Shown here: piece by piece, positions 382 through 63,695 of the stretch
Layout: each line of letters begins with the position of its first letter
Position numbering within the stretch: the stretch's first letter is position 1
Assembly (NCBI RefSeq): GCF_010119205.1
Contig: NZ_WRXM01000001.1
Coordinates: 558,001-622,000, forward strand
Reading direction: 5' to 3'
Source of the DNA: Haloarcula limicola
Lineage (GTDB): Archaea; Halobacteriota; Halobacteria; Halobacteriales; Haloarculaceae
DNA: 64,000 nt
Notes under the pieces: generated by a model
What the model was told of the DNA's origin: nothing
Database searches by the model: none
What the model saw: the letters and a program-made list of their open reading frames with translations, nothing else
Made by a program: the position numbers and the translations under genes

Positions 382-1098
382 ATGAGAGACACGACTCCCG
401 ACTTCTCACGCCCCCAGACGGCCGACGAGTTCCAGACCGACCCCTACGAGCCGGAGGTGGGGTCGCTGCCCGAACAGAGCGGCCGCGACGACGAGAAGGT
501 CAACAAGACCGGGACGACGACCATCGGCATCACGACGAGCGAGGGCGTCGTCATCGCCACGGACATGCGCGCGTCGCTGGGCGGCCGGTTCGTCTCGAAC
601 AAGAACGTCCAGAAGGTCGAGCAGATCCACCCGACGGCCGCGCTCACCCTGGTCGGCAGCGTCGGCGGTGCCCAGTCCTTCATCCGCTCGCTCCGCGCTG
701 AGGTCAACCTCTACGAGGCCCGCCGCGGCGAGGAGATGAGCATGCAGGCGCTCTCGACGCTCGCGGGCAACTTCGCCCGCGGCGGCCCCTTCTTCGCCAT
801 CAACCCGATCCTGGGCGGCGTCGACGAGGAGGGCCACCACGTCTACAGCATCGACCCGGCCGGCGGCGTCATGAAAGACGACTACACCGTCACCGGCTCG
901 GGGCTCACCGTCGCCTACGGGACGCTCGAAGACCGCTACGAGGACGGCATGAGCAACGAGGAGGCCCGCGAAGTCGCCGCCGCCTCGATCAAGGCCGCCG
1001 CCGAGCGCGACACCGGCTCCGGCAACGGCATCTTCCTCGCGGACGTCACGAGCGACGGCGTCGACATCCAGGGCTACGACTTCGACGAGCTTCTATAG
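382..1098 (+). CDS. psmB: 20S proteasome beta subunit precursor
   Basis: Catalytic subunit of the archaeal 20S proteasome, an N-terminal threonine hydrolase that degrades proteins unfolded by PAN/Cdc48 ATPases in the cytoplasm. The 238-residue precursor has a 44-residue propeptide ending NKTG; autocleavage would leave Thr45 as nucleophile in TTTIGI. Asp61 and the Lys at 78 occupy the positions of the conserved Asp17 and Lys33 of the mature enzyme, and VGSVGGAQ (about 92-99) is the usual family motif. An acidic, disordered propeptide of this length is normal for haloarchaea. The alpha subunit is not in the window. The gene is monocistronic; 62 bases after its stop begins one copy of a 103-base inverted repeat. 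Confidence 0.97.
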   Translation: MRDTTPDFSRPQTADEFQTDPYEPEVGSLPEQSGRDDEKVNKTGTTTIGITTSEGVVIATDMRASLGGRFVSNKNVQKVEQIHPTAALTLVGSVGGAQSFIRSLRAEVNLYEARRGEEMSMQALSTLAGNFARGGPFFAINPILGGVDEEGHHVYSIDPAGGVMKDDYTVTGSGLTVAYGTLEDRYEDGMSNEEAREVAAASIKAAAERDTGSGNGIFLADVTSDGVDIQGYDFDELL

Positions 1099-1262
1099 TA
1101 CCTTTTTGTGACTCGGATGTCCTCGCGGCGCTTCGCGCCGCTGTGGGCACCACTCGCCACAAAAATCTACGCTAAAAAGGCCGAACTCGCGGCGTCGCCG
1201 CGAGTTCGGTGTCTGCCGGAGCACAGCGACGGCAGGCTCGTCAGAACTCCGTTCTGACGGCG
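1097..1262. repeat. Left copy of a 166-base hairpin element (103 bases perfectly repeated at 4166-4268)
   Basis: Bases 1160-1262 are the exact reverse complement of 4166-4268, with 103 of 103 bases matching. The repeat holds three hairpins: a 12-base stem with loop CGTCG (1181-1209), a 6-base stem with loop GAGCACAGCGA (1213-1235), and a 7-base stem whose loop reads CGGAG on the minus strand (1240-1258). Before it lies a 52-base segment (1108-1159) with a hairpin GCGGCG-CTTCG-CGCCGC (1125-1141), and before that AGTACCTTTTT (1097-1107), which probably terminates psmB. The right copy has the same AGTACCTTTTT and also 52 bases in between, but of different sequence. It lies between the convergent genes psmB and udp. 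Confidence 0.9.
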
Positions 1263-1304
1263 TCTTCGCGCGACGGAGCGCTCCCGGCCCGCAGCCACCG
1301 CCCG

Positions 1305-2129
1305 CTACCGCTCGATCGAGAGGCCGGCGTGCCAGCCGTCGGCGTCGGCTTCTTCGACTGCTTCGTCCATCCGTTCCAAGTACGTCACCGCGAGGCTGGC
1401 GCACTTGGCGGCCTTGCGCTCGCCCTCGGTGCGGAACTCGCCGGTCTCGCGGTTAGCGTAGACGGTACAGACCGCGCCCGCTCGCAGGCCGTAGATGCCG
1501 GCGAGCGTGAGGACGCTCGCGGCCTCCATCTCGAAGTTGTAGACGCCGGCCTCGCGGAGTTCGCCGATTTTCGCCTCGCTGTCGCGGGCCTCGAAGCCGT
1601 CGAAGCCGGGTCGGGACTGACCGGGGTAGAAACTGTCCGTCGAGCAGGTGACACCGAGGTGGTAGTCGTAGCCCAGTTCCTCGGCGGCGGCGACGAGCGC
1701 CGAGACGACGCGGTGGTCCGCGCTCGCGGGGTAGTCCTCGCGGACGTACTCCTTGCTGGTCCCCTCTTGTCTGACCGCGCCGGTCGTGATGATCAGGTCG
1801 CCGACGTCGGCCTCGGGCTGGATGGCTCCACAGGACCCGACGCGGAGGAGGGTGTCCGCGCCGACGCGGGCCAGTTCCTCGACGGCGATGGCGGCGGAGG
1901 GCGAGCCGATTCCCGTCGACGTGACCGAAATAGGCGTCCCCTCGTGAGTACCCGTGGCAGTGCGGTACTCGCGGTGCTCGCCGACGATCTCGTGGTCGTC
2001 CCACCCCTCGACGACTTTCTCGACGCGCTCGGGATCGCCCGGCAGGAGCACGCTGTCGGCCACGTCCTCGGGGCCGACTTCGAGGTGGTACTGCTCCCCG
2101 TCGTTCGGGTCCTCGCTGTCGCCGGTCAT
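1305..2129 (-). CDS. udp: Uridine phosphorylase (PNP/UDP family 1)
   Basis: Cleaves uridine with phosphate to uracil and ribose 1-phosphate, feeding nucleoside sugars into central metabolism. The 274-residue protein shows the nucleoside phosphorylase family 1 pattern: GDPERV (31-36, phosphate site), STGIGSPSAA (71-80), LLRVGSCGAI (94-103) and the ribose-binding NFEMEAAS (198-205). The Q-x-R signature (QSRPGF, 171-176) favours uridine over purine nucleosides. The start codon overlaps the stop of cdd by four bases (ATGA), so the two are translationally coupled and act in sequence: cytidine to uridine to uracil plus ribose 1-phosphate. A purine nucleoside phosphorylase is the main alternative. 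Confidence 0.88.
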   Translation of the reverse strand: MTGDSEDPNDGEQYHLEVGPEDVADSVLLPGDPERVEKVVEGWDDHEIVGEHREYRTATGTHEGTPISVTSTGIGSPSAAIAVEELARVGADTLLRVGSCGAIQPEADVGDLIITTGAVRQEGTSKEYVREDYPASADHRVVSALVAAAEELGYDYHLGVTCSTDSFYPGQSRPGFDGFEARDSEAKIGELREAGVYNFEMEAASVLTLAGIYGLRAGAVCTVYANRETGEFRTEGERKAAKCASLAVTYLERMDEAVEEADADGWHAGLSIER

Positions 2130-2512
2130 CTATCCAGATGCGACCGGGAGATAGTCGTCGGGAGCAGTTCGCCGAGCGTGTACTCCTCGGCCTCGTCGCC
2201 GTCGGTGTAGATGCGAAAGGACGCGTCACAGAACTCGGAGAGGGTCTGTCGGCACATCCCGCAGGGCGTGACGCCGTCGCGCTCGGCCGACGTGACGGCG
2301 AGGCGCTCGAACTCGCGGTGGCCGTCCGCGACGGCGCTGCCGATGGCGACCTCCTCGGCGTGGAGGCTGTTGCTGTAGTTGGCGTTCTCGATGTTGCAGC
2401 CGGTGTACACCGAGCCGTCGGCCGTCTCGATGGCCGCGCCGACGCGGTACTCCGAGTAGGGTGCGTAGGAGGACTCCATCGCGTCGCGGGCGGCTTCCAT
2501 CAGGTCGTCCAT
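2126..2512 (-). CDS. cdd: Cytidine deaminase
   Basis: Zinc enzyme that hydrolytically deaminates cytidine and deoxycytidine to uridine. At 128 residues it has the size of the tetrameric cytidine deaminases. The zinc site is visible as HAEE (51-54, Glu53 the proton shuttle) and PCGMC (83-87, Cys84 and Cys87). The first ligand is His51, whereas most short tetrameric enzymes use Cys there; a His ligand is typical of the larger dimeric class. It sits between the mutase gene and udp with a four-base overlap to udp, forming a pyrimidine salvage operon. Confidence 0.93.
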   Translation of the reverse strand: MDDLMEAARDAMESSYAPYSEYRVGAAIETADGSVYTGCNIENANYSNSLHAEEVAIGSAVADGHREFERLAVTSAERDGVTPCGMCRQTLSEFCDASFRIYTDGDEAEEYTLGELLPTTISRSHLDR

Positions 2513-2574
2513 ACCGGCGGGTCGACCGGCCGGGGCAAATAGCCACCGGCGACTCCGAAGTCACCGCGGTTTCG

Positions 2575-63121: not shown

Positions 63122-63392
63122 CGGAATGTCAGTGTCGCGGTCACCGCGGGGCGCGGTGGCTGATCGGCGAGTCGGTCTCTTGCCGTCGTGTGCGAACGAG
63201 GTAGCACGTCCCGATTCTCGGGCGTGCGCTCGCTACTGCTATCGAGAGGAGAAAGTGATAGAAGAAACTAACGATTTCATTCCGCGGTATATTTTCACGT
63301 AAATATTCGGAGACCGAGATTATAAATCTTTCCCAGAACGGCGTCTCCATCTCTCTGGTCCAGATTCAGTCGAAAAGCGCCGGATGGCGTAG
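63122..63392. other. Gene-free spacer upstream of the Nudix-like gene
   Basis: No gene is seen in these 271 bases. The stretch at 63255-63330 is AT-rich and may hold divergent promoter elements. Reading frames here are short and lack coding character. Confidence 0.5.
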
Positions 63393-63540
63393 CCGTTTCG
63401 TGCGGCGGCCGAGAGGGGCAAACGCGAAGCGTTTGCGAGCGCCGATGGACGGAGTCCATCGGAATTTGAACCCGATGGCGAGACTCGCTTCGCTCGTCTC
63501 GCGTGATTCAAATCCCCCTATACAGCAGTTGCTGCTCGCG
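63393..63540. repeat. Partial tRNA-Gly copies with variable hairpins
   Basis: Downstream of tRNA-Gly, its acceptor arm recurs at 63401-63411 (TGCGGCGGCCG) and T-arm-like pieces at about 63459-63474 (CGGAATTTGAACCCGA) and 63505-63516 (GATTCAAATCCC). Hairpins lie between: GCAAACG-CGAAG-CGTTTGC (63418-63436), CCGATGGA-CGGAG-TCCATCGG (63442-63462) and GCGAGAC-TCGCTTCGCTC-GTCTCGC (63478-63502), the last with the eleven-base loop GAGCGAAGCGA on the other strand. Confidence 0.8.
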
Positions 63541-63557
63541 GACTGCTCGCAGCAAAA

Positions 63558-63628
63558 TGCGGCGGCCGGGATTTGAACCCGGGCCATGAGCTTGGAAGGC
63601 TCAGGTCCTACCACTAGACCACCGCCGC
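63558..63628 (-). tRNA. tRNA-Gly (anticodon TCC)
   Basis: A 71-base cloverleaf including discriminator A. The acceptor stem is GCGGCGG/CCGCCGC, the D-arm contains GGTCTAGTGGTAGGACC, the anticodon arm TGAGC-CTTCCAA-GCTCA holds TCC, and the T-arm is CCGGG-TTCAAAT-CCCGG. There is no intron or encoded CCA. Partial copies of it lie on both sides. Confidence 0.95.
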
Positions 63629-63659
63629 GCGTTCGCTTTGCTCACGCGCGCCGAGGCTC

Positions 63660-63695
63660 GCAAATCCATAGGATTTGCTCACCACCGCCGCTCCT
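63660..63695. repeat. Hairpin plus copied tRNA-Gly 5' arm upstream of tRNA-Gly
   Basis: GCAAATC-CATAG-GATTTGC (63660-63678) has the short-loop type. On the minus strand it is preceded by GCGGCGGTGG and TGAGC; the first copies the tRNA-Gly 5' acceptor arm and the second is the linker seen in the tRNA-Arg repeats. Confidence 0.65.

Follow-up and report, generated by a model that had tools for sequence, protein, structure and literature searches.

Results

Hairpins of one design at gene ends

The window, a stretch of 64,000 nucleotides (C1:558001-622000, C1 being contig NZ_WRXM01000001.1) of the 3.9 Mb Haloarcula limicola genome (G000), carries intergenic hairpins of a shared design at eight gene ends, where the tip of the hairpin is conserved and the stem mostly is not. 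The Pfam identities of the proteins encoded here are proteasome (psmB), oxidoreductase, gyrase A (PF00521), sucD-like ligase, aldo/keto reductase (AKR) and DUF2270, and a tRNA-Arg and a tRNA-Gly gene complete the set of gene ends. Genes were called by our own codon-usage caller and not taken from an annotation; less coding DNA was found by it in the compared genomes G030 and G007 (75-78%). The window was scanned for two classes of hairpins, those with a GA/GA mismatch (arm of at least 4, any triloop) and those with a C-RNA-G triloop (arm of at least 7), in the following called long-cap and short-cap hairpins, whereby in all class counts the two were restricted to C-RNA-G or RNA-type loops and 15 long-type hairpins with other triloops were kept apart. 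The scan returned 22 hairpins (12 GA/GA, 10 C-RNA-G) at the same eight gene ends where the initial annotation had seen at least 15, and the eight hairpins for which it gave positions are all present within 1 base, with 1240-1258 extending to 1239-1259.

Two separate loop classes joined by shared linkers had been proposed. Instead, we find a single cap design that recurs in three or more settings, among them a terminator-like element termed P, AGTAGCGAGG arrays and the flanks of tRNA genes. The C-RNA-G triloop is the tip of 20 of the 22 window hairpins, the exceptions being the triloops GAC (4137) and ACC (57501), and the short loops CTTCG and CTCCG are CGAAG and CGGAG on the opposite strand, all four representing one C-GNA-G triloop. 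The eleven-base "loop" of the long class is mostly helix: its letters 3 and 9 covary (A-T, G-C, C-G) in GAACGAAGTGA, GAGCGGAGCGA and GACCGCAGGGA, so that the eleven bases consist, from the stem, of GA/GA steps (tandem G·A mismatches), two covarying pairs and the triloop. Likewise, at the tRNA-Arg sites TGAGC and GCGAR, regarded as separate linkers before, form one more GA/GA mismatch, here at the foot of a longer stem.

In a pool of five genomes, GA/GA makes up 46/57 of the 2x2 mismatches below a C-RNA-G triloop in intergenic and 0/46 in coding DNA; below other triloops the figures are 24/259 and 22/1,244 respectively. The pair outside GA/GA is C-G in 25, T-A in 14, G-C in 7 and A-T in 0 cases (Py-GA in 39/46), and the base inside is a purine in 23/26. 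Sheared tandem G·A pairs are recognized by the sequence Py-GA-Pu, which the cap shows (5'-Py-GA-Pu-3') on both strands; by this rule the mismatches of the cap are predicted to be of the sheared type. A kink-turn, characterized by a 3-nt bulge beside tandem G-A, was considered and rejected, the GA/GA internal loop being symmetric and devoid of a bulge.

Frequency and spread

Chance palindromes of a GC-rich genome are a practically negligible explanation for these hairpins. The 139 kb of intergenic DNA of G000 hold 75 perfect hairpins (arms of at least 7, 3-nt spacer) versus 17.0 after order-1 shuffling, and no fewer than 34 of these have a C-RNA-G triloop; with a 4-nt spacer there are 29 versus 18.4. 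When a triloop on a 2-bp inner stem is required, followed by a 2x2 mismatch and an outer arm of at least 5, GA/GA is found 27 times in the same DNA (both strands) and 9 times in 722 kb of coding DNA. A 476-kb intergenic pool of the genus holds 62 short caps versus 3.7 after shuffling, and 45 long caps versus 0.0. In favour of chance, the enrichment of the 11-mer by itself is mild (287 copies in the genome versus 175 of the reversed pattern), and at least one of its copies in the window (44918) lies inside a called gene, from which it follows that loop and stem together are what counts. Background frequency of loop and linker matches had been named as an outcome that would refute the family; the loop alone is mildly above the reversed pattern, and loop plus stem is far above the shuffles.

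A covariance model of the long cap (R1), built from 26 hairpins of G000, and a search of haloarchaeal genomes, as the initial annotation had proposed, extend the family to all 32 species of the genus set (Haloarcula, including Halomicroarcula), with 13-144 matches per genome and at least 1,794 in total at E<=0.1 (150 candidates scored per genome). In the phylum, 135/392 genomes match at E<=0.01 (19 candidates scored per genome), which separate, when listed by kinship to G000, into 79/81 of its own order, the Halobacteriales, and 56/311 others, mostly with one match each. Of the two order genomes missed, G341 yields 13 matches once more candidates are scored (E<=0.05), and G164 none even so. 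A control model, the R1 hairpins with the loop reversed, found 10 matches in 8/32 genus genomes and matched 2/392 phylum genomes; its E-values and those of R1 are rough and were calibrated separately, so that the counts do not stand at equal scores, but its best genus score of 31.8 bits is below every listed genus match of R1 (lowest listed 31.9). Shuffles, coding control and reversed-loop model thus all contradict chance, which is refuted for the set as a whole, whereas single hairpins can still be chance. A second model, R2, which describes the P element, matches 80/117 order genomes at E<=1e-3 (best E 1.7e-19) and has at least 38 matches in G000 (40 candidates scored). Since only 150, 19 or 40 candidates were scored per genome, all these numbers are lower bounds. 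The capped hairpins are hence a real and widespread haloarchaeal gene-end design.

Outside the order, caps stand between T5-T6 and A5-A6 runs in G264, and cap-bearing repeats are present in G093 and in three genomes of one family (G271, G394, G221), where the repeated R1 matches look like copies of few repeats. In this lower-GC family of the same phylum (G271, G221), the loci L252, L253, L258, L259, L264 and L266 carry the repeat GTACTCAAGTTAATCC[GACCGAAGGGA]GGATTTTCTTG or variants of it, likewise with the cap.

Position and strand

Hairpins within called genes were removed before spacers, wobble positions and orthologues were counted, and duplicates before the T-run and G-T counts. Of 107 intergenic pool hairpins, 30 lie in convergent, 73 in tandem and merely 4 in divergent spacers, the supply of which is 81, 235 and 134 kb of 450 kb respectively, in agreement with the claim that the family belongs to the 3' ends of genes. 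In the window this claim is true in general and has to be qualified for the long-cap hairpin at 63626-63650 (- strand), which shares 3 bases with the 5' end of tRNA-Gly while also lying 3' of the next called gene. In tandem spacers, long caps are sense in 27 and antisense in 2 cases, whereas short caps show no strand bias (19:25). The predicted folding energies fit a bias in the long and none in the short class: 38174-38202 folds with -18.2 kcal/mol when the long-cap strand is taken and with -16.2 when the opposite one is, a short-cap hairpin (1125-1141) with -12.9 on both. The ViennaRNA parameter sets used hold a single value for nearly all triloops and thus do not discriminate between a DNA and an RNA triloop.

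The P element

Part of the hairpin set belongs to P, an element of approximately 200 bp in which two hairpins are followed by twin T5 tracts and then by a third hairpin and A5, and which was reached through long-cap matches. Its layout is GCAT-hairpin3-TTTCAC-hairpin2-GGCCTTTTT-N8-TTTTT-hairpin1-AAAAAGG, whereby the middle segment, between hairpin 2 and hairpin 1, reads GGCCTTTTTCGCCCACGTTTTTG and hairpin 1 is followed by AAAAAGG. The alignment underlying R2 comprises 24 sequences (31 pattern hits minus 5 judged by eye not to be P and 2 near-duplicates; some ends trimmed), including 5 from G000 which match by construction; RNAalifold predicts 12 pairs on it, 10 of them with two-sided changes. 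The stretches compared were picked by position or synteny with the window, or by a high R1 count, and are a non-random sample. Of 25 R2 matches in the stretches analysed, 23 were placed on gene maps and the weak or partial ones in L068 and L229 (4173-4237) omitted. All 23/23 placed copies have one or more called neighbours ending towards P (9 in convergent, 14 in tandem and 0 in divergent spacers), and in 17/23 the T side is faced by the 3' end of a gene, in 14 of these within 64 bases of the model end. The T tracts that define a U-tract terminator are present in P in both directions, as TTTTT-N8-TTTTT on one strand and, opposite to it, as TTTTT (AAAAAGG).

In the window, a two-way terminator-like P element lies beside psmB at 1103-1262 (- strand; R2 match 1160-1249(-), E 1.5e-6), with T5 four bases past the stop codon, followed by hairpin 1, by A5 tracts that read as the twin T5 on the - strand, and by hairpin 2. 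Its hairpins are the short-cap ones at 1125-1141 (C-GAA-G on the - strand) and 1239-1259 (C-GGA-G on the - strand) and the long-cap hairpin CTGCCG[GAGCACAGCGA]CGGCAG at 1213-1235 (+ strand). The same linkers and skeleton with other stems are found by eye beside psmB in at least 8/30 genus loci, and P at psmB was seen only in genus loci in a 450-base pattern and hairpin scan of 78/80 loci (two truncated ones skipped), which can miss degraded copies.

A second P element occupies 4133-4327 (+ strand; R2 match 4179-4268(+), E 1.5e-6, and 4133-4268, E 1e-6), 3' of the pyridine-nucleotide oxidoreductase gene, with a GA/GA hairpin of the non-RNA triloop GAC at 4137-4163 (+), short-cap hairpins at 4169-4189 (+) and 4286-4302 (+; C-GCA-G) and a long-cap hairpin at 4193-4215 (-). 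Over 103 bp, 4166-4268 is identical to 1160-1262 in inverted orientation, and the two copies flank a block with the nucleoside phosphorylase and phosphomannomutase-type genes. As in many relatives psmB is followed by the start of a similar phosphomannomutase, the block looks inverted via recombination between P copies. A shorter form of P, the terminator-like unit 3' of gyrA at 10983-11050 (- strand; hairpin, then CTTTTTGGTGCAGATTTTT), gives a weak R2 match (E 0.26), and a short-cap hairpin at 10866-10888 (+), likewise 3' of gyrA, has CTTTTT after it on the - strand. At 10840-11060 the last gyrA codons are repeated in tandem together with the following terminator-like hairpin, and in G007 a gene tail, visible in three copies, alternates with P elements.

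Arrays and tRNA flanks

The remaining hairpins of the window were all detected by the design scan. Downstream of sucD, the long-cap hairpin CGATAGAC[GAACGAAGTGA]GTCTATCG (30996-31022, + strand) is identical in the related genome G002. The AKR gene is followed by four long-cap hairpins on the + strand, at 38042-38070, directly past the TAG stop codon, at 38143-38163 (GCGGT[GACCGCAGGGA]ACCGC), at 38174-38202 (CGAGGGTCC[GAACGGAGTGA]GGACCCTCG, with an AGTAG linker) and at 38214-38232 (CGGG[GAACGAAGTGA]CCCG). Array hairpins start exactly past the upstream TAG stop both here and at C1:805234. Among 19 AKR sequences examined by eye, five carry the array; all five have TAG as stop, which in four is part of the AGTAG linker, while 12/14 array-free orthologues stop with TGA or TAA. 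In different arrays and species, a G-G mismatch, CGAGG-G-GCG...CG-G-CCCTCG, recurs in stems that are otherwise near-perfect (e.g. C1:185619, C1:185831, and 48765 in G002). The GA/GA hairpin with triloop ACC, of the non-RNA type, lies at 57501-57521 (+), 37 nt 3' of the DUF2270 gene.

Near tRNA-Arg, a short-cap hairpin with TGAGC/GCGAR (GA/GA at the stem base) at 59564-59582 (+) is accompanied by a long-cap hairpin at 59638-59656 (-) and a short-cap one at 59736-59754 (-). Around tRNA-Gly there are short-cap hairpins at 63418-63436 (+), 63442-63462 (+) and 63660-63678 (+) and, besides 63626-63650, a long-cap hairpin at 63478-63502 (-), which is sense and 3' of the tRNA gene. This hairpin has inverted T-arm-like copies at its flanks, an arrangement of a capped hairpin between inverted tRNA T-arm/acceptor-like copies (GGATTTGAATCAC ... 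GGGTTCAAATTCC) seen at 63440-63520 and at the loci L138, L159, L170 and L178; it looks as if the tRNA 3' end had been copied back, or an integration site doubled.

Change of the stems

All 9 pairs of R1 covary, varying on both sides, and 88.5% are paired versus 51.3% in shuffles, which is in part by construction as the hairpins were selected for pairing. Orthologous sites were compared in two species pairs, G000/G002 and G030/G007, in which aligned DNA is approximately 89% identical; the comparison was read in both directions, so that some sites enter the counts twice, and part of the breaks stem from shifts in the alignment. Among 91 intergenic hairpins, 28 have no orthologous region, 42 are absent or replaced by the alignment rule and 21 are aligned. 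In these 21, with mostly unchanged arms, 148 pairs are unchanged, 5 show two-sided changes and are still paired, 2 have changed to G·T and 9 are broken, and the loops are altered at 24/135 positions. At C1:896170, GTCG/CGAC has become GTGG/CCAC by a compensated change; around C1:896094, hairpins 2 and 3 are replaced while the linkers are kept; and at 63660 the stem is retained in G002 with a loop changed from ATA to TGC, a switch of the GNA-type loop to the other strand. The hairpins 3' of sucD and at C1:805234, on the other hand, are identical in G000 and G002, the aligned DNA of which differs by about 11%. The stems are therefore hypervariable, as initially described, between sites and often between species, while orthologous stems can be conserved; likewise, the expectation of the same loop on different stems at orthologous loci holds for the compensated or replaced stems at some of them and not for the 21 with mostly unchanged arms. 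Pairing, however, is kept as the stem sequence changes, in line with the proposal that complementarity itself is maintained.

Such presence and absence at orthologous gene ends (AKR, present in 5/19; absent or replaced for 42/63 hairpins that have an orthologous region) could also mark dispersed repeats similar to repetitive extragenic palindromes (REP) or miniature inverted-repeat transposable elements, of no use to the host and multiplied by an unseen transposase or through recombination of one copy with another, the hairpins then reflecting movement. Consistent with this are the many copies, with at least 38 P matches in G000, the tandem copies of a gene tail with P at gyrA and in G007, the inverted 103-bp copies in the window, and partial matches of the region 1090-1300 to six haloarchaeal plasmid records from four genera (17-54% of the query). 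Yet stems mostly differ between copies, unlike in a spreading sequence, all 23 placed P copies face the 3' end of a gene, and linkers with T tracts are common to families across the order, which makes this a quite unlikely origin of the set.

Discussion

A probable role of the capped hairpins at transcript ends

RNA hairpins at transcript ends would account for the position, the strand bias of the long caps, the T tracts and the compensated changes in the stems. We consider it probable, at roughly 0.6, that the hairpins act as RNA 3'-end hairpins with one stable cap and that P is a two-way U-tract terminator. In the proposed mechanism, the 3' end of a transcript would carry a hairpin capped by Py-GA/GA-Pu tandem mismatches, two Watson-Crick pairs and a triloop, usually of the GNA type. 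Only pairing and cap would matter, so that the sequence of the stem could drift by compensated changes or be swapped as a whole. On one strand of P, transcription would pass the hairpins and then two T5 tracts, on the other the T5 beside the stop codon and then a hairpin, and P elements beside stop codons would thus stop transcription from both directions. The RNA would fold as proposed, polymerase would stop at these sites and the hairpin may protect the 3' end. The AGTAGCGAGG arrays and the tRNA-side hairpins, for which a 3'-end role may be proposed by analogy, are less well explained.

Several observations weigh against this interpretation. A T4+ run just 3' on their own strand is found in only 22/141 long-cap hairpins, even if the excess over A4+ runs on the 5' side (3/141) speaks for the interpretation, and for short-cap hairpins in only 2/121 on the GNA strand with an A run 5' in 9/121 (coding positions included in both), the GNA thus being more often opposite to the T-run strand. 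Capped hairpins taken together consequently mostly lack the T tract adjoining the hairpin of a U-tract terminator, and, most long-cap hairpins having no T run, a role of the arrays and tRNA flanks in termination is hypothetical. The sense bias is weaker over the 58 loci of the top R1 matches from genus and phylum (L131-L188), with 21 sense, 12 antisense, 19 convergent, 5 divergent and 1 at an edge. With 71 capped hairpins for 796 called genes, most genes must be without one, and GA/GA hairpins (any triloop, arm of at least 4) also occur within genes (22 in 864 kb). P copies between tandem genes (14/23) have a called gene to stop in one direction only, and a few gene ends facing P are far off, up to 620 bases. 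Finally, G-T wobbles are usual in RNA stems; here, they are rare, with 24 in 1,926 internal pairs of 299 hairpins (up to two non-Watson-Crick pairs allowed) and 0/92 at enclosed stem positions. As a rough control, tRNA acceptor stems have G-T in 9/133 readable pairs, 32/165 being classed as "other" from out-of-register tRNAs.

The almost purely Watson-Crick arms would also be in accordance with an origin at the DNA level, where the GNA mini-hairpin folds in single-stranded DNA and primes snap-back copying or template switching, by which perfect arms of any sequence would be made and the cap kept as the best DNA fold. DNA mini-hairpins with GNA loops are very stable (GCGAAGC melts at 78 C; PMC4686876, the part available), which together with the scarcity of G-T is the main argument for this origin, and the spacers have 3 nt, compared to 4-5 nt downstream of bacterial stop codons in the accessible portion of PMC13155455. 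The short class is without strand preference, the loop at 63660 changes strand between species, and the aligned orthologues have 5 two-sided changes against 2 to G-T and 9 broken pairs (with the double counts and alignment breaks mentioned). However, the hairpins are scarce in divergent spacers and in genes, and the sense bias of long caps, the T tracts and the linkers kept as stems change speak for selection at transcript ends. No clear one-armed relative was found among the orthologous sites; the sole candidate for such an empty site, AKR in G002, is equally explained by deletion between AGCGAGG repeats. While an origin of the family at the DNA level thus appears unlikely, template switching may help to keep arms perfect.

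Alternatively, the cap could be a general haloarchaeal gene-end recognition signal, recognized by a protein dedicated to it or by the termination or 3'-processing machinery. Any stem that presents the cap would then serve, and the signal would be used in a modular fashion in two-way terminators, in arrays after stop codons and at tRNA ends; we hold this to be rather improbable.

Relation to known systems

The usual description of an archaeal terminator is a T tract that does not require a hairpin, with aCPSF1-dependent termination as a related form of archaeal U-tract termination, whereas bacterial Rho-independent terminators consist of a stable hairpin capped by UUCG or GNRA loops before the U tract, with variable stems. 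A stable capped hairpin before a U tract and freely varying stems are features that P has in common with the latter, while a triloop with tandem G-A instead of a tetraloop, T tracts on both strands and the archaeal host set it apart. In Haloferax volcanii, according to the part of PMC7237163 that could be consulted, T5C stops transcription in 95% and one tested hairpin, from a coding region, in 59%; hairpins were found upstream of 503 transcription termination sites, and hairpins seen in another archaeon were not deemed essential. As here, T tracts lie 3' of genes with hairpins upstream, but a conserved cap, twin-T5 spacing and a multi-hairpin element are not described in that part. Post-stop inverted repeats of Bacteria, weaker in Archaea, resemble the present 3' sites with a peak 50-80 bp downstream, and their arms are more conserved than the spacers; in the excerpt of the study (PMC13155455), perfect repeats are treated by spacer length, with a bacterial hotspot at 4-5 nt instead of 3, and no cap motif is given. 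The d(GCGAAGC)/GNA-triloop mini-hairpins share the C-GNA-G tip with at least two closing pairs, yet they are, as far as the available text of PMC4686876 goes, a DNA motif in aptamers, whereas here the motif is genomic, has GA/GA below and acts probably as RNA. Bacterial REP/ERIC palindromes are likewise dispersed, intergenic, at gene ends and present in many copies, with a conserved stem sequence (PMC12306157, in the accessible part), while here cap and linkers are conserved and stems mostly are not. Unlike the conserved stem that would define a REP, the stems mostly differ between copies, and a few recur, such as GCGAGAC at the tRNA sites.

With Rfam 15, only the two tRNAs of the window reach the gathering score; 900-4500 gives four matches at E<=5, far below gathering, five 20-kb stretches with nine R2 matches give none at gathering, and part of one 20-kb stretch gives three at E<=1, again far below. 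Searches of the open-access literature, most subscription papers being outside this scope, yielded no description of a capped hairpin family among the results listed; motif strings are present in 67 papers, and of the 20 titles listed for these none deals with haloarchaea. The initial annotation, to which no described family of this design was known, is thus supported by Rfam, for the window and nine further P copies, and by the open-access searches, according to which the family is apparently undescribed.

Significance

R1 and R2 provide a searchable model for annotation, and P, with a fixed cap, free stems, T5 on both strands and matches in 80/117 genomes of the order, constitutes a testable set of hairpin-aided gene ends. 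The conservation of the cap asks for an explanation by binding or by stability. If it is a recognition signal, the cap-bearing relatives outside the order (G264, G093 and G271/G394/G221) would show an older origin of this signal. With pairing plus cap, and not sequence, being what is retained, the family represents a natural experiment on the function of 3'-end hairpins at molar salt.

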